IMG/VR virus record: IMGVR_UViG_3300031525_000188
Coordinates: 1-35,743 of that record
DNA: 35,743 bases
Source: a virus
Strand: one strand, 5' to 3'
The position numbers were made by a program, and so were the translations under genes. This document shows positions 19,463 through 33,776 of the stretch, one piece after another. The notes under the pieces are model-generated. The model was not told where the DNA came from, ran no database searches, and worked only from the letters and a program-made list of their open reading frames with translations. Numbering within the stretch: the first letter of the stretch is position 1; the number at the start of each line of letters is the position of its first letter.

Positions 19463-20277
19463 TACGCCGCCATCACCGGGAGGAGGACGCGGCCCGAAGG
19501 CCGCTTCCCGATCGCGAAGGTGGGGTCGTCTGACTTCGGCGTCAGCGTGGCGGTCAGTTCGATCTTCGCGCCTTTGAGGCCGTCGATCTGCATGCTCGCC
19601 GGGACCGTCGTCCAGACCTTGTAATCCCCGTCCGCCTTCACGAGCATCTTATGCTCGATGCCGTAGCGCCCCTCGGTGACCTTCTCCGAGAGAACCGTGC
19701 CCTGGAACGTCACCCGGCCGCTGGGGGCGGGGCTCATCGTAGCCTTGTCGGCTTCGCGTTGGGCTAGGAACCGCTGTTTGGATTCGATCACCCGCCGCAC
19801 TGCCGACACTTGGCGTTCGCTAAGCTCGCCGTACTGGGTGAGATTGCCGACTACGTCGCCGACGAAGTCACCGTACTGCCAGGCGTCTTGCTCCACCAGG
19901 GGGCGGAAGTCCGGGTTCTCCCGGAGAAAGGATTCGAGTTTGCCGACTTTGCGGCTGCGCTCGGCGCGGGCCTTGGCGGCTTCACGGATGGCGGTGAAGG
20001 CCACCTGTGACTCGTTGAACCGGTTGTGCAGACAGTCCTCGCCGACCATGATGCGCTCGCCGGTCTGCTGGTGCTCCAGGACGGCAGCATACCGAAGGTG
20101 GGCACCGCAATGGCTGCACCGGCCGACCTTCACGCACGGCTTCTGGCCGCTCTTGAGGTAGGCAGAGTAGCCCCACGGCCCGCCGAACTCGGGCGTGAGG
20201 TCCAAGACGGTCACGAGGTCGTAGTTCTCGACGCTGAAGTCGGGGTGGCTGGCGTGGTGGATAGTTTGTGTGGTCAT
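19459..20277 (-). CDS. zinc-binding hypothetical protein
   Basis: A 272-residue protein from ATG at 20277, which has an AAGGGG ribosome-binding site immediately upstream; an earlier in-frame start eight codons upstream lies beyond that site. Residues about 55-85 contain 'CSHCGAHLRYAAVLEH' and 'GERIMVGEDCL', a Cys-x2-Cys...Cys treble-clef-like zinc site seen in phage and bacterial proteins of unknown function. The rest is a helical middle (85-175) and a beta-rich C-terminus (190-272) that may be an OB-like fold. It is the last gene of the leftward arm, preceded by a repeated leader element (20281-20314). Nucleic-acid binding is a reasonable guess only. Confidence 0.75.
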   Translation of the reverse strand: MTTQTIHHASHPDFSVENYDLVTVLDLTPEFGGPWGYSAYLKSGQKPCVKVGRCSHCGAHLRYAAVLEHQQTGERIMVGEDCLHNRFNESQVAFTAIREAAKARAERSRKVGKLESFLRENPDFRPLVEQDAWQYGDFVGDVVGNLTQYGELSERQVSAVRRVIESKQRFLAQREADKATMSPAPSGRVTFQGTVLSEKVTEGRYGIEHKMLVKADGDYKVWTTVPASMQIDGLKGAKIELTATLTPKSDDPTFAIGKRPSGRVLLPVMAAY

Positions 20278-20280
20278 GCC

Positions 20281-20314
20281 CCTTATAACCCGCCGATTCA
20301 AAGGGTGGTTTCAC
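20281..20314 (-). promoter_or_regulatory. leader element E (repeat of element D)
   Basis: On the minus strand this reads GTGAAACC, 17 bases, then GTTATAAGG running into the ribosome-binding site of the 20277 gene. It matches element D (20687-20720) over about 34 bases with few differences and shares the same spacing with elements B and C. ACC...GGY arms could form a small hairpin. Confidence 0.6.
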
Positions 20315-20411
20315 CTAACTGTACCGCCGCTGCCTCAAAGCCTCGCCACAGCGCCAAAAAAGCGCCGTAAACGGGGTTCGGCGGACACGGCGGACGAGAA
20401 GTGAAAGTAAG

Positions 20412-20443: not shown

Positions 20444-20680
20444 CTAGGTCCGCACAAACGCATCAATAGCGGTGTACGTGTATTTAATCCCGAGTTTTTT
20501 GCACGTAGCCCGCATGGCGAGGCTATCTTTGCTGTAGGATTTGCGGTCAATGGCGAACATCATTCGTGCGCTTACTTGGGGGACCGCATCAATCGGCCAA
20601 GTATATACATCGGGATGTGCCAGGACTGCTGCGGTTAACTCCTCAGTATAGGTCCGTTCGAAAAGTTCGCGATTAGTCAT
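20444..20680 (-). CDS. small conserved-looking hypothetical protein
   Basis: A 78-residue protein, MTNRELFERTYTEEL..., from ATG 20680; a second ATG sits one codon upstream and a GAGGG ribosome-binding site overlaps further upstream codons. A longer open frame upstream runs through hairpins and the leader element and is not believed. The C-terminal half ('RKSYSKDSLAMRATCKKLGIKYTYTAIDAFV') is basic and helical, with a pattern I associate with a family of short phage proteins of unknown function. It is individually framed by leader element D and a terminator, so it may be its own transcription unit. Confidence 0.7.
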   Translation of the reverse strand: MTNRELFERTYTEELTAAVLAHPDVYTWPIDAVPQVSARMMFAIDRKSYSKDSLAMRATCKKLGIKYTYTAIDAFVRT

Positions 20681-20686
20681 CATATC

Positions 20687-20720
20687 CCTCATAACCCACC
20701 GATTCAAAGGGTGGTTGCAC
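20687..20720 (-). promoter_or_regulatory. leader element D
   Basis: Minus strand: GTGCAACC, 17 bases, then GTTATGAGG, ending at the ribosome-binding site of the 20680 gene. CCACC and GGTGG arms inside it can pair around a 9-base loop. It is nearly identical to element E. Confidence 0.6.
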
Positions 20721-20734
20721 CTGGTGGGGATAGA

Positions 20735-24332: not shown

Positions 24333-24358
24333 ATCGATCCTAAAAGTGGGAGGCGGTT

Positions 24359-24430
24359 TAGCGGGGCCGGGAGTCGAACCCAGTATTTCGTGCTTATGAG
24401 GCACGCGAGATGCCGTTTCTCTACCCCGCT
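24359..24430 (-). tRNA. tRNA-Met (anticodon CAT)
   Basis: A complete cloverleaf on the minus strand: acceptor AGCGGGG/CCCCGCT, D-arm GAGA...TCTC with a G-G in the loop, anticodon stem CGTGC/GCACG with loop CTCATAA (anticodon CAT), a 5-base variable region, and T-arm CTGGG-TTCGACT-CCCGG, then discriminator A. CCA is not encoded. The fully paired first acceptor base pair (A-T) argues against initiator tRNA; elongator Met or a lysidine-modified Ile2 (CAU) tRNA are possible. It lies inside the leftward arm between small protein genes. Confidence 0.92.
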
Positions 24431-24497
24431 AGAGGCGGTCTTCGACACACATATGCGAAGTTCCGGCCAATTCTATCCCTTAATGGGATACAACGGG

Positions 24498-25337: not shown

Positions 25338-26858
25338 TCAATGTGCGGCATAAACGAAACTACCCCACGTGACCGACGACGGGAACGGCAAATTGAATCC
25401 GCGCCGGTTGTTCGTCGCGTCGACCCACGTCGGGAGACCTTCTTTGACCGCCTCAGGAACGAACTGCGCGAGGTACGGCGCGGGTAAGCCCCAGGCCGTG
25501 TACGTCTTGTCGCTCTCAAAGTTCGGCGGACCGATGGTCGAGGACGGGCCGCCGCCCGAGTCGATCGCGATCGCGCCGTAATGATCCTCGTCCATCGTCC
25601 GCAAGAGCACAGCGACCAGTGGCGCGACGCCGAGCGCGTTGACCTGCGCGTCGTGCATCGCGAGGTACAGGTGTGAACCTTCGGGCGGCGCGCCAGCACA
25701 CTGCCCGTCGCCCGCGCCGATGAACGGCGGCGGAAGTGGACCGGGTCCCGTGCAGCCGAACGCGTAGCTGATCGCGCCGGGCAACACGCCGCTCGGCGAC
25801 CCGATCGCCGCGAGCCAATCCTTCGCGCGCACGAGGCCGAGCGAGAGCGGCGTATCACTCGCGTCGCCGGCGCAACCCGTGCCCGGCTTCGAGGGATTCG
25901 TGAACCCGTTTCCGGCGAGCGCCGCGCGTCCGCCGAAGCCGACCGTCAGCACGCCGTTGACCGGCGGCCATTGGGTCTGCCACAGGCAATACTCGTAACC
26001 GCCGGCAGGGTCGATCAATGCGAAGTGGTTGTCCGCCGCGCAGCCGCCGGTCGCCGGGCATCCGCCGCTTTGCGGTAGCTCACGCGGGTCGATGTAGATC
26101 GTCAGGCCCTCGACGTTGCAGGCACCCCACGGCTCGGCGCAGTGAATCTTGACCGGCGTGTTGCTGCCAGCGTGGTTCATGTAGACCGGGAAGGCGATCT
26201 CTTGCGCGCTCGGCATCGGGGCGAGTTGCACGAACATCGCGCCGAATGTCGGCGCTCCTTGCTTTGCATCCCACGCGAGCCACGCTGCAGACGAAGCGTT
26301 CGGCGTGACCGTACCGCCGAGCGCGCCAAACGGATTGCCGGGGAAGTACGGCTGCACGCCCGCCGGCGGATCGTAGGCGCTGCTAGTCGGGCTCGGCGAG
26401 GATGGCGCAGATGCGGTCGGTAAGGCCGTCGGCAGTGCCGACCTTGGAGTCGCGGATGGCGATGGCGGCGTCGGAAAGCTCGTCGGTGATGCGCTTGCGC
26501 TTGGCGTCGGTGACCACGTAGCCGTTGGCGCGGGGCTTGGTGAAAGCGTTGGCGGCGGCGCCGTAACGATTGGCGATGGCGTGGGCGTGGCTGCTGCCGG
26601 CGGCGTCGACGAAGGTGGTGACGGCTTCGATGGCGGCGACGCCGAGGGCGCGGAGGTAGCTGGGGGAGACGTCGGCGCCGACGACGCTTGGGGTGTTGTC
26701 GTTGGAGTCGCTGAAGGTTGCGGGGCTGCTGTCCACGTTGGTGCTCCTGTCGGAGTCGGCGATGCGGTTGGGGACTGAGTCGGTGGCGACGTTGGCGGGC
26801 CGCACAGCGTGAGGCTCGCGGTAAACGCGATGCAGACGATCGACTGAGCGATAAGCAT
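25338..26858 (-). CDS. secreted protein with signal peptide and Pro/Thr/Ser-rich linker
   Basis: A 506-residue protein from ATG 26858 (GGAG ten bases upstream); the longer open frame is rejected because the signal peptide begins here. 'MLIAQSIVCIAFTASLTLCGPP' is a hydrophobic signal peptide; 'LTLC' is only an imperfect lipobox. Residues about 22-170 are almost entirely Pro, Thr, Ser and Ala (mucin-like). The C-terminal 330 residues are a Cys-rich, Gly/Pro-rich domain with at least ten cysteines in pairs such as 'CPATGGC', which suggests disulphides outside the cytoplasm. It also has 'DNHFALIDPAGGYEYCLWQTQW'. It is unlike a normal phage protein and more like a host-derived surface protein, hence a possible cargo gene. 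Confidence 0.75.
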   Translation of the reverse strand: MLIAQSIVCIAFTASLTLCGPPTSPPTQSPTASPTPTGAPTWTAAPQPSATPTTTPQASSAPTSPPATSAPSASPPSKPSPPSSTPPAAATPTPSPIVTAPPPTLSPSPAPTATWSPTPSASASPTSFPTPPSPSATPRSALPTALPTASAPSSPSPTSSAYDPPAGVQPYFPGNPFGALGGTVTPNASSAAWLAWDAKQGAPTFGAMFVQLAPMPSAQEIAFPVYMNHAGSNTPVKIHCAEPWGACNVEGLTIYIDPRELPQSGGCPATGGCAADNHFALIDPAGGYEYCLWQTQWPPVNGVLTVGFGGRAALAGNGFTNPSKPGTGCAGDASDTPLSLGLVRAKDWLAAIGSPSGVLPGAISYAFGCTGPGPLPPPFIGAGDGQCAGAPPEGSHLYLAMHDAQVNALGVAPLVAVLLRTMDEDHYGAIAIDSGGGPSSTIGPPNFESDKTYTAWGLPAPYLAQFVPEAVKEGLPTWVDATNNRRGFNLPFPSSVTWGSFVYAAH

Positions 26859-26932
26859 TATTCTGTATCTCCGTTCACCGGCTTCGCGCCGGGCTTGAAG
26901 CGAATCGCGGCCAGAATGAGTGAGGCGATCAA
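26858..26932 (-). CDS. 24-residue micro-protein between coupled genes
   Basis: TTG at 26932, with GGAGAGGA nine bases upstream, encodes a peptide starting MIASLILAAIRFKPG and ending at a TAA whose last base is the first base of the next gene's ATG. Its start also overlaps the preceding stop (TTGA). The exact fit on both sides and the good ribosome-binding site support translation. The N-terminal half is hydrophobic, possibly membrane-inserting. It may also serve to couple translation of the secreted protein. Confidence 0.45.
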   Translation of the reverse strand: MIASLILAAIRFKPGAKPVNGDTE

Positions 26933-27171
26933 TCGATTGAATCCTCTCCGTAAGCTGCACGGAAGTTTTGACGGAATACCGCGATCTGATTAAGGACCGT
27001 GGTTTCGAGATGGTTGAAGGCGGCGGTGACCAGCGCCTTACCTTCGGAAGTGCCGGGATCGACCTCTTCGTCGAAGACGATCTTCGCACTAGCGTGCGGT
27101 TTGACGTTTGCGTACTGATTCCTGAGTGGCATCGTACTGCCGAGTGAGAAGGTCAATTCAGTCAACTTCAT
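26929..27171 (-). CDS. hypothetical protein, first gene of the leftward arm
   Basis: An 80-residue protein, MKLTELTFSLGSTMPLRNQYANVKPHASAKIVF..., with a predicted beta-rich N-terminus and a C-terminal amphipathic helix ('LVTAAFNHLETTVLNQIAVFRQNF'). No ribosome-binding site precedes the ATG. A promoter-like pair at 27180-27209 would start the transcript only 2-3 bases before it, so a leaderless mRNA is likely. As the first gene of the arm it could be an early gene. No family is recognised. Confidence 0.6.
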   Translation of the reverse strand: MKLTELTFSLGSTMPLRNQYANVKPHASAKIVFDEEVDPGTSEGKALVTAAFNHLETTVLNQIAVFRQNFRAAYGEDSID

Positions 27172-27209: not shown

Positions 27210-27284
27210 CAGCAGCGGGCGGCGCGCACACGTCTATGTGTGTTTTGACAGGAAGATTAGGGGTGCGCGGCGAAGGTGCGGCAA

Positions 27285-28160
27285 ATGTCGCCTAGCGATC
27301 CCTATGGACGCATATACGGTTCCTGGATTAAGGCGCTCCGGCACGATCATTCGGCGCTCGTGGTCCTAACCGTCCTCATGCTATTCCACCGCGGCACCAA
27401 AGGTGCGTACGTCTATCCCAGCACGAAGACCATAATGGACTACACTGGGCTGGGGCGCAACGCAATCAGACGAGCCCTAAAGCGTATTTCGCTACTGATT
27501 CCGGGAGTCATCCGAGTTAACGACGGCACCCATAAGCGCGAATTTTACATCGAAATACCGACCGGCGAAGGGTACACCAGCGGCCCCCTTGGGGGTCACC
27601 AGCGCCCCCTTGGGGCTCTCCAGGGAGCCCCAGAAGGGTCTCTCGGGGTCTCTCCTGGGGCTCTCCAGGGAGCCCCAGTGGGGCTCTCCAGGGAGCCCCA
27701 TCTATCCTATGAAGAAAGAATAGAAGAAAATACATATATACCCCGGCAAAATTCGGAGGGAGAAGACGCCGTGCCCAGATACCCAGTCAATGGAGTCTAC
27801 ACCGTAGCCAAAGAAGACTCGACCAGGAAACCGCCCACCGATCAGCAGACAAGCCCAGGCATAAAATCCAAGAAGGCCCGAGCTACTAATTATGTAGTTG
27901 ACGGGGAAAGATTGGCTGGGCTCCTTTCCACGCTGACGAAACGGCCGAAGGTGGCGGAGGAACTGCCACGTTGGGCCAAGTTTGCGGAGCGGTATGGCGG
28001 GTATGACGCCGCATCTGCTATCATCTTCGCATGTCTCGCAAACCCGCAATCCACTGCGTGGATGAATTCCGCGATGAGTTTCAAGCGCGTAAACCAGTAC
28101 GCGATCGAGCACTGGGATAAGCAAGCCGATGAGTCGTTACTAGACCCGAGATTCATGTGA
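27285..28160 (+). CDS. replication initiator-like HTH protein (lambda O-like logic)
   Basis: About 291 residues from ATG 27285, with GAAGG eight bases before it (a GTG nine bases earlier is an alternative). The N-terminal domain (about 10-95) is a winged helix: 'YPSTKTIMDYTGLGRNAIRRALKRISLLIPGVIRV...KREFYIEIP'. A Gly/Pro-rich linker (about 95-140) is encoded by the repeat array at 27579-27699. The C-terminal domain (about 200-291) is helical ('LAGLLSTLTKRPKVAEELPRWAKFAERYGGYDAASAIIFACL'). The order initiator, loader-like gene, helicase follows lambda O-P logic. It should bind the origin and recruit helicase. Confidence 0.75.
   Translation: MSPSDPYGRIYGSWIKALRHDHSALVVLTVLMLFHRGTKGAYVYPSTKTIMDYTGLGRNAIRRALKRISLLIPGVIRVNDGTHKREFYIEIPTGEGYTSGPLGGHQRPLGALQGAPEGSLGVSPGALQGAPVGLSREPHLSYEERIEENTYIPRQNSEGEDAVPRYPVNGVYTVAKEDSTRKPPTDQQTSPGIKSKKARATNYVVDGERLAGLLSTLTKRPKVAEELPRWAKFAERYGGYDAASAIIFACLANPQSTAWMNSAMSFKRVNQYAIEHWDKQADESLLDPRFM
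27579..27699 (+). repeat. iteron-like repeat array, candidate replication origin
   Basis: Three copies of a 20-base dyad (arms GGGGCTC and GAGCCCC around TCCAGG) begin at 27612, 27657 and 27680. Two CCCCCTTGGGG repeats lie at 27584 and 27605, and GGGTCTCTC variants lie between. Copies one and two are in the same reading frame but copy three is shifted, so the DNA rather than the protein sequence is conserved. Immediately to the right (27700-27745) is a strongly A+T/purine-rich stretch, as expected for an unwinding element. The array lies within the initiator gene, as lambda ori lies within O. Confidence 0.65.
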
Positions 28161-28696
28161 GGGACTACAGCGAATCTACCGATCCGAACGACTTCTTCGC
28201 CGCCGCAAATCTACCGCGGTTCGCATGGTGTAACCCTGCACCGCAACTCGACCCGGTGCGCTGGCCAGAACTCGGTCCCGGCTTCCATGCGTGGTTAACC
28301 ACCCCCGTGCCGATCCTCACAATCATCGGGGGAACCGAATCGGAGCGCACGCATGAAGCTGCGACGTTGACGCGCTACTGGATCGATAAGGCGACATACT
28401 TCATCCCGGACAACTTTAACTTTTACTTCGCTGACGCGCTGTCGCTTGTTACCGCGTTCAAGGATCGTTGGCGCGAAGAGTCGGACATTATGAACGTCGC
28501 GCAATTCACGAAATTCTTGGTGCTCACTGAATTGCATCGCGTCGAGGCGAAGGATCAGCTTGCGCTTGAGATGGTGATTCGCCAAAGGCGCAACGCTGGG
28601 AAGTTTACTGTGGTTACGGCGGCTAAGGGTATGCCAGGTGTATCAGAGACGATCAAAGAGATGTTGAATACGGGGCGCGTGGTGAAACTTGCGTAA
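28157..28696 (+). CDS. degenerate P-loop protein, helicase loader-like
   Basis: A 179-residue protein from GTG overlapping the initiator's stop (GTGA). 'PVPILTIIGGTESERTHEAATLTRYWI' (about residues 50-76) sits where a DnaC-type Walker A would be, but the Gly-Lys-Thr core is replaced by 'SERTH'. 'QFTKFLVLTELHR' occupies the Walker B position, with Thr-Glu instead of Asp-Asp/Glu. 'QRRNAGKFTVVTAAKG' resembles the sensor I strand. Size, fold order and position between initiator and helicase suggest a loader related to DnaC/P that has lost ATP hydrolysis. Function is inferred. Confidence 0.6.
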   Translation: MRDYSESTDPNDFFAAANLPRFAWCNPAPQLDPVRWPELGPGFHAWLTTPVPILTIIGGTESERTHEAATLTRYWIDKATYFIPDNFNFYFADALSLVTAFKDRWREESDIMNVAQFTKFLVLTELHRVEAKDQLALEMVIRQRRNAGKFTVVTAAKGMPGVSETIKEMLNTGRVVKLA

Positions 28697-29996
28697 CGGT
28701 GAACTGCTTTCGCGGCTCATAAGCGCACACGAGCTTCTTCCTAGCGACACGTTACTGTCGGACGAGATGTTCGACGGATTTCAGTCCGAGTGGGATTTCG
28801 TTAAGTCGTACCATGCACAGTTCGGGCTCATGCCTGACAAGGGTACGTTCCTTACGCAGTTCCCCGACTTCGAATTCGAGGACACCGAAGCGTCGGCGCA
28901 ATGGTTGGCCGATGAAGTAGCTCAAGACATTCTCGACGGTAAGATTCGTCAGAAGCTCGAAGAGCTTGATTCGCTGCGGCAACTGAACCCGCGCGACGTG
29001 ATCGACCGGATGCAGGACGCGCTGCTCGATCTTCGCCCATATGCACATGGTTCGATTCGCCATGATGGTGATCTTTGGGACATGGCGGACATCGCCGCGG
29101 AAGCGCAGCGCCGTCGTGAGAATCCTGATAAGTCTGGGATCACGCTAGGGTTCGAGCTTCTCGACGAAGTAACGAACGGTTCGCAGCCCGGAGCGATCGA
29201 GACCTATTTCGCTAGGCCAGGTATCGGTAAATCACTCGTGCTGTTATACGGTGCGTACGCCGCATCGCAGCAGGGGCGTAAGGGGTTGTACTTCAGTCCC
29301 GAGATGGATAAGTTCGAGACCGGGGTGCGCTTTACGGCATACAACCTCCATGTAAGCGCATTCGAGCTTATGGGCGGACTATTGCCGGATGATGAGTGGA
29401 TTGCGTACCTCACACAGATGCAGAAACTTAAGCGTGGTGCTCCGATCCTATTCTATGAGCCGACCACGCTGGGCGGTCAAATCACTACCGCGCATATAGC
29501 ACGTGCGATTGCGATCGAGAAGCCCGACTTCGTTTGCGTTGACGGCGTAATGCTAACAATGCCGCGGGTGATCGACAAAGACATTCGTAAAACCATATTC
29601 GCGACTATGAAAGAGTTGAAAGACATTGCAGTCGAAACACACATCCCAATCCGCGTGGCGCACCAAGCGAATCGTAACTCCGAATCAAATCGCCCGCGAC
29701 GCGGAACGTCTACGGTCGATGAGCTTATCCCAGCTTTACATCACATGGCTGAGTCTGGAAGCGTTGAACAGTTCACGAATGTTGCCATCGGCCTAGCAAA
29801 GCTCCGTGGCCGACTTCACTTGGCGGTTCGAAAGAATCGCAACGCGCCTACGGGACGCATCATCTCTGTTAGTCACGACGTTGACCGAGGCCGCATTCGA
29901 GAAGCTATGATCGTTCACGGCAATACCGAGATTGACGATGCCGCGCCTGCGAACGTCGAGATGGAACGCGGCGCGCACCCGGAGCATCGTTTCTAA
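28689..29996 (+). CDS. replicative DNA helicase (DnaB-type)
   Basis: A 435-residue protein, TTG start overlapping the previous stop. The N-terminal ~120 residues form the helical domain. A linker leads to the RecA core: 'LGFELLDEVTNGSQPGAIETYFARPGIGKSLVLL' with Walker A Gly178-Ile-Gly-Lys181-Ser182, 'LYFSPEM' with the catalytic Glu205, Walker B 'PDFVCVDG' (Asp285), 'PIRVAHQANR' and an arginine-rich C-terminus ('LAVRKNRNAPTGRIISVSHDVDRGRI'). It is the ring helicase that unwinds 5'-3' at the fork. It lies between the loader-like gene and the primase. Confidence 0.88.
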   Translation: MRNGELLSRLISAHELLPSDTLLSDEMFDGFQSEWDFVKSYHAQFGLMPDKGTFLTQFPDFEFEDTEASAQWLADEVAQDILDGKIRQKLEELDSLRQLNPRDVIDRMQDALLDLRPYAHGSIRHDGDLWDMADIAAEAQRRRENPDKSGITLGFELLDEVTNGSQPGAIETYFARPGIGKSLVLLYGAYAASQQGRKGLYFSPEMDKFETGVRFTAYNLHVSAFELMGGLLPDDEWIAYLTQMQKLKRGAPILFYEPTTLGGQITTAHIARAIAIEKPDFVCVDGVMLTMPRVIDKDIRKTIFATMKELKDIAVETHIPIRVAHQANRNSESNRPRRGTSTVDELIPALHHMAESGSVEQFTNVAIGLAKLRGRLHLAVRKNRNAPTGRIISVSHDVDRGRIREAMIVHGNTEIDDAAPANVEMERGAHPEHRF

Positions 29997-29997
29997 A

Positions 29998-30975
29998 ATG
30001 CGCCCGCATAGTCTCGACGCACCGAAAGTCATCGGTAAACTCATAACGGGCGATGTCGTGCTGGCGATCCTCGATCGACTTGACGTTGACTTCATCGCGA
30101 CCGAGAAGGAGGCGGTGACTTACTGCCCGTTCCACGAACAGGAAGAGGGTTCGCGCCCGCATATGTATATCAATGTGCAGCACAAGCCTGGTGTGTACCA
30201 CTGTTTTAGGTGCGAGGCCAGAGGTGATTTCGAGAATTTCCTCATGCGGTACACCGGCTGGAATGTCTACAAGTGCTTGGATTTATGCAGGAAGATTAGC
30301 AAAGGCGTCGAAAGGGGGGAGATAGAGCCACCTGCACGCCGGGAGTCCGGCCCAGGTGAATTCGCAGAAGCTGATCCGCTTTCAAAGTACGCCTTTAGGC
30401 ATGAGTACCTCTACGAGCGCGGATTGACAGAGGAGACCTTACAGCGCTTCGATATTGGCTACGATCGCGCGGAGAATGAAATCACGTTCCCGTGGTTCTC
30501 AAGAACCGGCGAACTCGTAGCAATTAAACGACGTAACTGCGTTTCTAAGGCATTCCGCTACAGCCTGGGTGGTGATCGACTCTCGACCCTCTTCGGGCTC
30601 AATCATGTTAAACTTAAGGGGGTAACATGGATTGTGGAATCCGAAATAGATGCGATGACCCTCGATCAGGTGTTCCGCATCGCCCATTATGAGGACTTCT
30701 TCGCTCTCGGCCTCGGGGGTAGCACGTTAGCCCCGACTCAGATCGAAGCCCTCAAACCAAAGCAACCTAGAGCAATCGTCCTAATGCTGGACAACGATGA
30801 CCCGGGCCGGGAGGCCCAACGACAGATACGAGCAAAGCTCGTTGAACACGTAACGGTCCCAATCATTGAAGTCGCGTACCCTGGCCCAGAGAAAGACGCC
30901 AACGCGATGACATTCGAGCAGATCGCACAAATCGCACAAACCGTTAGCAACCACGTTGCGGCTAAGGCCGCGTAA
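29998..30975 (+). CDS. DNA primase (CHC2 zinc finger and TOPRIM)
   Basis: A 325-residue protein from ATG 29998; an earlier in-frame start overlaps the helicase gene. The zinc finger is 'CPFH' (Cys43, His46) and 'HCFRC' (Cys69, Cys72). The TOPRIM fold follows: 'TWIVESEIDAMTLDQV' with its Glu and 'AIVLMLDNDDPGREA' with the Asp-x-Asp pair. It is compact compared with bacterial DnaG and lacks the helicase-binding C-terminal domain. It should lay RNA primers at the phage fork, working with the adjacent helicase. Confidence 0.88.
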   Translation: MRPHSLDAPKVIGKLITGDVVLAILDRLDVDFIATEKEAVTYCPFHEQEEGSRPHMYINVQHKPGVYHCFRCEARGDFENFLMRYTGWNVYKCLDLCRKISKGVERGEIEPPARRESGPGEFAEADPLSKYAFRHEYLYERGLTEETLQRFDIGYDRAENEITFPWFSRTGELVAIKRRNCVSKAFRYSLGGDRLSTLFGLNHVKLKGVTWIVESEIDAMTLDQVFRIAHYEDFFALGLGGSTLAPTQIEALKPKQPRAIVLMLDNDDPGREAQRQIRAKLVEHVTVPIIEVAYPGPEKDANAMTFEQIAQIAQTVSNHVAAKAA

Positions 30976-30989
30976 GGGCAGTTACTACA

Positions 30990-31607
30990 ATTCGCGGATA
31001 CCAGTCAGCAGCTAAGCACCATGCCGATAACACCGGCCTTCCCTACAGCATCTTGAAGCTGAAGAAGGACGGCGACTTCGCGGAAGTGCGCGTGCTCCAG
31101 CCGGAAGATGAATGGGTCTCCCTGTTCATCCACCAAATGTTCAATCAGAAGATCAAGGCGACTCGTTGCGCGAGCGACAAAGAGAGAGACATCGCGCTGT
31201 GCGCGCTGTGCGCTCAAGACGCGCCGCGGTCGCTCCGAACGTACATCCCGGTCCGCGTGCGCGGCGAGGATGACATGACCAAGGTGCATGTGATCGAGTA
31301 CGGTCGCGACAACCTCTCGGAAGTCATCAATCAGATCGAGGAACTTCCCGAAGGATCGAACATCACGGAGTTCGATTTCAAGGTCAAACGCAAGGGTACC
31401 GGAACCGACACGATCTACAAATGGGTGCGCCTTAGTACCGCGCCGGACGAGTTGTCGGCCGGACATAAGGCCCTCGTGATCCCGGACATCGAAGCGCTCA
31501 TCCCCGTTCCGGAACAGGAACAGATCGACGTTCGGGCCAAGCAATACGCACAAGCCTCGACGGCTGCGCCGGTTGTCGCGAAGTCCGACGCTAAGTCGCG
31601 GTTCTAG
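30990..31607 (+). CDS. probable single-stranded DNA-binding protein
   Basis: About 205 residues if read from an ATT at 30990 (AAGGG 11 bases upstream). The first standard start is TTG 31053, but protein-like sequence 'RGYQSAAKHHADNTGLPYSILKLKKDGD' continues upstream, and no ATG/GTG/TTG exists between the in-frame stop at 30963 and 31053. Features include 'AEVRVLQPEDEW', a Cys pair 'CALCAQD', 'TYIPVRVRGEDDMTKVHVIEYG' and 'FDFKVKRKGTGTDTIYKWVRL', a beta-barrel-like pattern seen in phage ssDNA-binding proteins with a zinc loop. Position between primase and polymerase agrees. There is no strongly acidic C-terminal tail. Confidence 0.6.
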   Translation: MRGYQSAAKHHADNTGLPYSILKLKKDGDFAEVRVLQPEDEWVSLFIHQMFNQKIKATRCASDKERDIALCALCAQDAPRSLRTYIPVRVRGEDDMTKVHVIEYGRDNLSEVINQIEELPEGSNITEFDFKVKRKGTGTDTIYKWVRLSTAPDELSAGHKALVIPDIEALIPVPEQEQIDVRAKQYAQASTAAPVVAKSDAKSRF

Positions 31608-31642: not shown

Positions 31643-31771
31643 GTGGACGATACGGATGGTTATGATTTCATGGCCCTCGTTCGTCTATTCAAGGCGGTGT
31701 ACCAGCGCAAGTGTCTTCTGGGCACTTGCGCTGTCTGCGACGCGGTGAGGGCCGGGGAGAAGGATGCGTAA
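31643..31771 (+). CDS. possible 42-residue small protein
   Basis: GTG at 31643 opens a frame MDDTDGYDFMALVRLFKAVYQRKCLLGTCAVCDAV..., ending at 31771 and overlapping the polymerase start by eight bases. Three cysteines in 'KCLLGTCAVC' could form a small metal site. There is no clear ribosome-binding site, and the frame contains a long perfect hairpin, so the region may instead be regulatory RNA. Confidence 0.4.
   Translation: MDDTDGYDFMALVRLFKAVYQRKCLLGTCAVCDAVRAGEKDA
31703..31733 (+). promoter_or_regulatory. 11-bp perfect hairpin upstream of polymerase gene
   Basis: CAGCGCAAGTG (31703-31713) and its exact complement (31723-31733) around a 9-base loop, about 30 bases before the polymerase ATG. 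There is no T-run, so it is unlikely to be a terminator. It may be an RNA-processing site, a translational operator or a DNA site. Confidence 0.5.
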
Positions 31772-33776
31772 GTCTAAGGTTGCAGATACTCAAGTTGCGT
31801 TATTTGAAGACCTTCCAATCCTTACCCCGAAGGGCGATCGCCGCGTAATTAAAGCGCTCGAAGCACGCGAGCGAGATTGCGTTGTGCCGAAGAACTTCAT
31901 CATGGTGGAATCTCTGGCGCAGGTGCGCGAGTGTGTCGCTGAAGTGCGCGCCGCGAAGCTCTGCTCGATTGATACCGAGACCACCGGCATCCACTGGTTT
32001 ACGCCGGACTTCAGAGTCACGGCTATCGGCGTTTACGCCAATTCGACGGGCTGGATTATTCCGCATTTCATGCTGCACGCTCCGCTGACGCTCGATAAGA
32101 CGCAGATTCAGGATGAACTCGGAGATATATTCGAGGACCCGGAGATTGCGAAGATATTTGCATACGCACAGTTCGATCGCCACGCGATCCGGCGTACATT
32201 CGACATTCAGATCGGCGGTACGAAGCATGATGTAGTTCTAGCGGGATGGATTCTCGACGAGAACGTCCGCCACGGTATCGAGCCACTGGCGGAGATGTAC
32301 CTTGGCCAGAGTGGGTGGAAGATCAAGCAAGACGGCAACTTCCACATGTGGCCCAAGAACATGGCGACACTGTATCTAGGGCACGACATTGAAACAACGA
32401 TGGCGCTCTATCGATTCCAGCTTCCGAACTTAGAAGCGCAGCCTAAGCTCTATAAGCTCATGTACGAAATCGAGCAGCCTCATCAGGACTTGCTCTACCG
32501 AATGGAGCAGCGCGGCGTTGCGTGGGACCAGGATTACTTCGATGAGTTCGTGCGACCTGAAATCGATCGACACTATGAGCAGGCAGTCGCCGCGATCCGG
32601 GCGTATCCTGGTATGGAGAATATAAATCCTGCGAGCCCCCAGCAGCTATCGAAAGTGCTATTTGACGGATTAGGGCTGCGTCGCATTAATATGAATTCTG
32701 TCGATAAGCGTGTTCTCTCGCACCTCAAGGGCGAACATCCGATCATCGAAGACCTTGAGCACTTCAGCAAGTATGCGACGCTGAAGAAGAACTTCGTGAA
32801 CAAGTTACCACGATTCGTGGTTAACGGCCGCATCTACACGAGTTTTGCGGGAATCGGTGCGCGCACTGGGAGGCTCGCGGCTAAGAATCCTAATCTTCAG
32901 AACATCCCCAAGGCGGCGATCGGGCCACTAATTCGTAAATCCTTTATCCCGAGCCCCGGCTATGTGCTCGTAACATTAGATTACTCACAGATCGAGCTTC
33001 GTATTCTCGCCCATCTCGCGAACGATCAAGCGATGATCGATGCGTTCGTTGCGGGTCATGACTTTCATACGGTAACGGCACACCGTATGTCGGGGTTATC
33101 GATGGCGGAGTTAGAGGCAGATAAGGACCTTCCACAGCGCGTCGTTGCGAAGAACGTCAACTTCGGTATTCCATATGGTATCGGTGGCGTGAAGCTCGTA
33201 GATACCGTGAACATCCTCCTGTCGAAGATGGGTGTCGATCCGTCGAAGTTCTATAAAGAGGAGCAGGGTAACGATTTAATCGACGACTGGTATGCTGCGT
33301 ACCCTGAGGCCGCTGCATACTTGCAGTCACAGGTCGACCTCTACAAAGATACAGGTGTTGTGGAGACGATCTTTGGCCGGAAGCGGCGCCTGTACGTAGA
33401 GCGCGAGTCCGGCAATTGGGGTATCCGCGCATCGGGCGAGCGCAAGGCGAGGAACGCACCGATCCAAGGGAGCAGCGCCGACCTTGTTAAGATTGCGGCC
33501 CTTGCCCTGGACAAGCTCATTCGTGAGAATCATTGGCCGTACACACCGTTGCTATCGATCCATGACGAGTTGATATTTGAAGTGCCGATCGAGTGGTTAA
33601 ATGCGAATCGTGGTACACTTGAACAACTGAAATACGCGATGGAGCACTGCGCAGAACTTAGTGTTCCGCTCAAAGTGGGCTTGGACATCTTGGATCGATG
33701 GGGCGCGAAACGTCCTGAAGAAGCCGACACCCTCGAATTCGATGACGAGGAAACAGAGGAAGAAGACGCCGCATGA
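31764..33776 (+). CDS. family A DNA polymerase with 3'-5' exonuclease
   Basis: A 670-residue protein, ATG with GGGGAGAAGG upstream. Exonuclease motifs: Exo I 'SIDTETTG' (Asp70, Glu72), Exo II 'YAQFD' (Asp138), Exo III 'YLGHD' (Tyr204, Asp208). Polymerase motifs: 'ARTGRLAAKNPNLQNIP', motif A 'LDYSQIELR' (Asp406, Glu411), motif B 'RVVAKNVNFGIPYG' (Arg459, Lys463, Phe467, Tyr471) and motif C 'HDE' (600-602). No 5'-nuclease domain is present, as in phage replicative PolA. Phe at the O-helix site (E. coli Phe762) is, in marine phage surveys, more often linked with virulent than temperate lifestyle. Confidence 0.95.
   Translation: MRKSKVADTQVALFEDLPILTPKGDRRVIKALEARERDCVVPKNFIMVESLAQVRECVAEVRAAKLCSIDTETTGIHWFTPDFRVTAIGVYANSTGWIIPHFMLHAPLTLDKTQIQDELGDIFEDPEIAKIFAYAQFDRHAIRRTFDIQIGGTKHDVVLAGWILDENVRHGIEPLAEMYLGQSGWKIKQDGNFHMWPKNMATLYLGHDIETTMALYRFQLPNLEAQPKLYKLMYEIEQPHQDLLYRMEQRGVAWDQDYFDEFVRPEIDRHYEQAVAAIRAYPGMENINPASPQQLSKVLFDGLGLRRINMNSVDKRVLSHLKGEHPIIEDLEHFSKYATLKKNFVNKLPRFVVNGRIYTSFAGIGARTGRLAAKNPNLQNIPKAAIGPLIRKSFIPSPGYVLVTLDYSQIELRILAHLANDQAMIDAFVAGHDFHTVTAHRMSGLSMAELEADKDLPQRVVAKNVNFGIPYGIGGVKLVDTVNILLSKMGVDPSKFYKEEQGNDLIDDWYAAYPEAAAYLQSQVDLYKDTGVVETIFGRKRRLYVERESGNWGIRASGERKARNAPIQGSSADLVKIAALALDKLIRENHWPYTPLLSIHDELIFEVPIEWLNANRGTLEQLKYAMEHCAELSVPLKVGLDILDRWGAKRPEEADTLEFDDEETEEEDAA

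Follow-up and report, generated by a model that had tools for sequence, protein, structure and literature searches.

Where does replication of this uncultivated phage begin, and does its origin lie within the gene of the protein that would initiate it? The window (the whole stretch of DNA analysed, 35,743 nt) is a linear virus record. Its first half contains tail genes, and a replication operon begins at 27.3 kb on the + strand. The original prediction had placed a replication origin inside the initiator gene, and this reading is supported by the geometry of ori-lambda, by a gene-blind repeat scan and by related viral loci. We consider it very probable that the region 27570-27753 is a phage replication origin that sits within the phage's own initiator gene and works like ori-lambda or SPP1 oriL.

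The operon opens with the predicted replication initiator (27285-28160, 291 aa from the ATG at 27285). It is followed by a protein in the helicase-loader position (28157-28696, 179 aa), the start of which overlaps the initiator stop codon, and by a DnaB-like replicative helicase (28689-29996; DnaB_C, E 1.2e-20; phrog_19, E 4.5e-49), a DnaG-like primase with zinc ribbon and Toprim (29998-30975), a single-strand DNA-binding protein-like product (31053-31607; phrog_14578, E 1e-6) and a Family A DNA polymerase with 3'-5' exonuclease (31764-33776; DNA_pol_A, E 8.8e-93), all on the + strand. The gene order of Streptococcus phages Dp-1 and MS1 is DnaC/DnaI, DnaB, DnaG, SSB and PolA, with the protein in the SSB position unnamed in Dp-1.

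The initiator ORF has an alternative start, GTG at 27276, and AAGGTG is found about 10 nt before the ATG. Its protein matches phrog_270 (replication initiation protein, E 2.9e-4) and carries a winged-helix (HTH_36) DNA-binding domain at aa 22-67 (27348-27485, + strand; E 1.8e-6). An AlphaFold model predicted a winged-helix N-terminus with low to moderate confidence, and the predicted fold resembles the DNA-binding domains of CodY and MarR; this model supports the statement "winged helix" and nothing finer. A sequence search of the PDB gave nothing useful.

The repeats lie at aa 96-139 of the 291-aa initiator, in the part encoding the linker between the winged-helix domain and a helical C-terminus, which is where they had been predicted. 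Their core is a 20-nt dyad, GGGGCTCTCCAGGGAGCCCC, present in three identical copies (27612-27631, 27657-27676 and 27680-27699), and a search allowing 3 mismatches found no further close match in the window. The related C5TTG4 repeats also proved real: the window contains exact copies of CCCCCTTGGGG at 27584 and 27605 and at no other position. Degenerate dyad copies at 27570, 27591 and 27636 enlarge the array beyond what was originally noted, to about six units, a number taken from a metagenome assembly, which can miscount such repeats. In order along the + strand, these units are: copy 1, degenerate, GGGTACACCAGCGGCCCCCTT (27570-27590); copy 2, degenerate, GGGGGTCACCAGCGCCCCC (27591-27609); copy 3, an exact dyad (27612-27631); copy 4, in which two GGGTCTCTC half-sites stand head to tail at 27636 and 27646 (27636-27655); and copies 5 and 6, both exact dyads (27657-27676 and 27680-27699). 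The six unit starts are spaced by 21, 21, 24, 21 and 23 bp. The dyad has perfect arms of 7 bp and an imperfect centre, and its symmetry was equalled by only 38 of 5000 composition-matched shuffles; in copy 2 the symmetry at position 5 is kept, the C-G of the main dyad being replaced by G-C at this position and its partner. With up to 1 mismatch allowed, half-sites GGGGCTC occur 10 times in the 130 nt of the array, compared with 3 in the densest 130-nt window elsewhere, and are spaced 10-13 bp apart, i.e. about one helical turn.

Two other repeat pairs were observed in the window. One is a 43-nt direct repeat (20274-20316 and 20680-20722; 88% identical, 406 nt apart) with ATAACCCRCCGATTCAAAGGGTGGTT in both copies; on the minus strand an ATG stands at the end of the 20274 copy, and the pair may be a promoter or operator shared by minus-strand genes. 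The other is a 29-nt inverted repeat (2796-2824 and 2967-2995; 86% complementary) with 142 nt between the arms.

Repeats within a coding sequence might simply be an expanding coding repeat: a flexible Gly/Pro-rich linker would have arisen by slippage or tandem duplication, and the pattern in the DNA would be functionless. The frames of the six unit starts relative to the gene (0, 0, 0, 0, 0 and 2) are compatible with this as far as five of the six units are concerned, and a recent duplication might account for two of the exact copies. When the linker was resampled synonymously with the codon usage of the window, the observed repetition was reached in none of 20,000 trials (and in none of 5000 in a second run), although this procedure is not enough on its own to dismiss simple duplication. 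Set against duplication are the dyad symmetry of the unit and the exact copy at 27680, which, as originally predicted, is out of frame with the other two. The array is, moreover, adjoined by the A+T minimum of the window, and arrays in related loci are frame-shifted in 24 of 39 syntenic ORFs, in contrast to none of 10 strong control repeats (see below). We therefore regard a functionless coding repeat as highly improbable. Judged from the out-of-frame copy and the frame-shifted arrays of the relatives, the repeats are constrained as DNA rather than as protein.

Directly on the 3' side of the array lies an A+T-rich tract (27700-27753), purine-rich on the + strand, which on base composition and stability is a predicted DNA unwinding element. 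The run of A+T anticipated at this place turned out to be extreme: no other 46 nt of the window are as A+T-rich as positions 27708-27753, the most A+T-rich 30-nt stretch also falls within the run, and the 30 bp at 27711 are thermodynamically the least stable of the whole 35.7 kb according to nearest-neighbour energies. By its architecture as read from the DNA (array, A+T tract and DNA-level constraint), the locus qualifies as a candidate in-gene iteron origin of the lambda/SPP1 type.

A winged-helix protein with dyads nearby, and with a fold resembling CodY and MarR domains, has the look of an autoregulator, and the dyads could accordingly be operators through which the protein represses or otherwise controls the operon it belongs to, with no role as an origin. 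These sites, however, are situated about 300 nt inside the gene and not at a promoter, the only promoter-like match nearby is weak and on the other strand, and 5-6 helically phased units are joined to an A+T minimum within a replication operon, in a layout that recurs in relatives. Operators in place of an origin are thus very improbable, and autoregulation could coexist with origin function. It is also conceivable that the dyads act as hairpins in the mRNA and so adjust how the replication operon is translated or terminated, since folding of the transcript is more stable than that of shuffled sequences (z -3.05). Such folding, however, is given by any GC-rich dyad array, the repeats of the relatives are A+T-rich with dyads that are often weak, and hairpins leave the layout of the A+T tract and the helical phasing unexplained. 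There is no terminator-like T-run, and intrinsic terminators were rejected. We consider the hairpin explanation extremely improbable.

The cumulative GC-skew minimum falls away from the array, at 23.8 kb. This position is weak counter-evidence to the origin because of the opposite-strand genes and the incomplete contig, and for a fragment with genes on both strands GC skew was regarded as uninformative. A sharp change of GC skew was seen at a 583-codon ORF (25338-27089, - strand), which contains a long Pro/Thr/Ser-rich stretch and adjoins the replication operon. A tRNA-Met (CAT) gene (24358-24431, - strand) stands beside a gene of an SNF2-type helicase and is possibly an initiator tRNA or an attachment remnant.

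The comparison with related viruses was based on a primase alignment, which gave 80 viral loci, 39 of them with an ORF of 230-370 aa whose end is 450-1300 nt upstream of the helicase gene. Position was the sole criterion for choosing these syntenic initiator ORFs; the controls were 375 further ORFs from the same loci. At an array threshold of n>=6, a repeat array was found in 28/39 syntenic ORFs and in 10/375 controls, the other 11 syntenic ORFs being without an array at this threshold. The array was frame-shifted in 24 syntenic ORFs (24 of the 28 with an array) and in none of the 375 controls, where all 10 strong repeats were in frame; this bears out the original argument for selection at the DNA level. 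A frame-shifted array with an adjacent A+T tract was present in 20/39 syntenic ORFs, compared with 0/375 controls. The Fisher p-value for the syntenic versus control comparison is below 1e-22, and such values overstate independence because the loci are mutually related; after clustering at 40% identity, an array was present in 10 of 18 cluster representatives. The proposed check for the array in relatives thus had a positive outcome.

HTH_36 was detected in 22 of the 30 initiators scanned (29 from relatives and that of the window). The relatives' initiators are only 11-19% identical to the one studied here, the winged helix of which gives a weak match to their profile (E 0.0048). Neither the initiator nor the dyad pair had a close relative in the viral contigs, phages and genomes searched, so that what is conserved is the architecture and not the array itself. 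The repeat sequences vary by virus, e.g. GTAGTAAAGAAACTTTAC at 22/24 bp, TATGCAACTCAGTTG at 22 bp, AACTCAGTT at 20/22/22 bp and TATGCACCT at 24/20 bp. These uncultivated loci (within the range L045-L120) resemble the present one in having a winged-helix initiator, an in-gene frame-shifted array, an A+T tract and DnaC-like, DnaB-like and DnaG-like genes; unlike it, they belong to A+T-richer genomes, have other repeat sequences, often in three exact copies, and retain an intact Walker A motif in the loader. The closest kin, L043, shares 38% identity in the primase and has matching SSB, PolA and nuclease genes in the same order; its sequence begins within the helicase gene and is without the initiator. 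Helicase-based scans for relatives were discarded, as they yielded distant loci only, in which the module is absent.

In-gene origins are predicted in L045, L046, L049, L053-L059, L061, L064-L066, L069, L070, L077, L078, L088, L097, L100, L101, L106, L110, L114, L116, L117 and L120; among them the repeat sequence varies while its place in the winged-helix gene is fixed. Four further loci (L091, L092, L093 and L095) carry very dense tandem repeats in short stretches, with at least 180 repeated 10-mer pairs per 140 nt in three of them and no A+T tract after the repeats.

An unsupervised scan for repeated 10-mers, blind to genes, was run on lambda, Tuc2009 and the window. It returned ori-lambda as the single array in lambda and the array described here as the single array in the window, and its top array in Tuc2009 was the rep gene, which is annotated as containing the origin. 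The geometry of ori-lambda is close to that of the present locus: dyad iterons of about 18-20 bp lie in the middle of the gene of an initiator of about 300 aa (aa 117-145 of 299 in the O protein, aa 96-139 of 291 here), they are spaced by 20, 24 and 23 bp, compared with 21, 21, 24, 21 and 23 bp here, in mixed frames in both cases, and a purine-rich A+T tract, ACACAAAAGACACTATTACAAAAGAAAAAAGAAAAGATTATT, stands on the same side of the iterons. Lambda O binds as dimers, and related Stx phages have six iterons, four of which are bound strongly (PMC7466680), a number similar to that of the present array. According to Dodson et al. (1986), as cited in PMC7466680, two iterons with the A+T tract constitute the minimal unwinding unit in lambda. 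The original description of the locus as lambda-like therefore stands for the architecture (position, spacing and side of the A+T tract) and fails for the proteins. The initiator belongs to HTH_36 and not to Phage_rep_O (PF04492), for which the window contained no match up to E 10 while lambda O itself scored 5.7e-36, and the next gene is not lambda P, the Phage_lambda_P domain (PF06992) not being found in it. Unlike lambda, the phage itself encodes a helicase, a primase and a polymerase, and its iterons are G+C-rich and unrelated in sequence.

In SPP1, oriL lies in gene 38, with direct repeats and an A+T unwinding element inside the gene of the origin-binding protein, and gp38-gp39-gp40 include a helicase loader and a DnaB-type helicase (PMC6316719), the same plan as here. 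SPP1 differs in using host primase and polymerase (PMC6316719), and the likeness shown here is one of architecture, not of sequence. The same can be said of Tuc2009, which likewise has the array in the rep gene; its Rep, in contrast, is annotated as DnaD-like. The oriV of repABC plasmids is placed within the coding sequence of the initiator RepC and has an essential A+T region, and in the parts of PMC3155836 consulted an iteron or dyad array was not found described. The initiator studied here has a weak match to the RP-C domain (E 0.016, under the cut-off). The arrangement is already known from phage lambda; its putative counterpart in this uncultivated phage recurs at the same site, differently spelled, in most of the distant relatives examined.

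Of the two genes named as following the initiator, the helicase was confirmed, whereas the loader-like assignment of 28157-28696 was not borne out by sequence alone. In relatives, the gene between initiator and helicase carries the GNGKTSW and DD motifs of the DnaC/DnaI loaders (AAA+). Here, the protein has no Walker A motif (GxxGxGK[TS]), no match to PF01695 or another family and none to the Dp-1 and MS1 loaders, and its AlphaFold model, computed with no alignment, was too poor to use (mean pLDDT 36). An hhalign comparison with the loader profile of the relatives gave a weak match of 26 residues near the Walker B/sensor-I region (p 0.034). Together with gene order, this match suggests that the protein may be a degenerate or different loader.

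We infer the following course of events at the candidate origin. Dimers of the initiator would bind the 5-6 iterons via the N-terminal winged helix, at about one dimer per 21-24 bp and on a single face of the helix, with the DNA wrapped around them. The strain of wrapping would open the adjacent A+T-rich tract, at which the initiator C-terminus and the small downstream protein would deliver the phage DnaB-like helicase; the primase, SSB and PolA of the phage would come next. As the iterons encode the linker, its amino-acid sequence would follow from the DNA sites. On a bolder reading, which we consider somewhat less likely than not, the winged helix and the embedded iterons would form a self-contained, co-diverging cassette across the uncultivated DnaC-DnaB-DnaG-PolA phages, in which the iterons would turn over while the place in the linker, the frame-independence and the A+T neighbour stay. 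The linker peptide would then be a by-product, and the loader here would in addition have lost its ATPase site.

The analysis pinpoints, to the base, where replication of an uncultivated phage is likely to begin. A simple rule, i.e. a frame-shifted array with an A+T minimum in a winged-helix gene upstream of a DnaC/DnaB pair, appears to find origins in many other phages, and the spread of the same layout with a changing iteron sequence adds to the interest of the finding. As the initiator-iteron pairs number in the dozens and differ in their sites, the change of winged-helix specificity alongside the in-gene site becomes directly testable.
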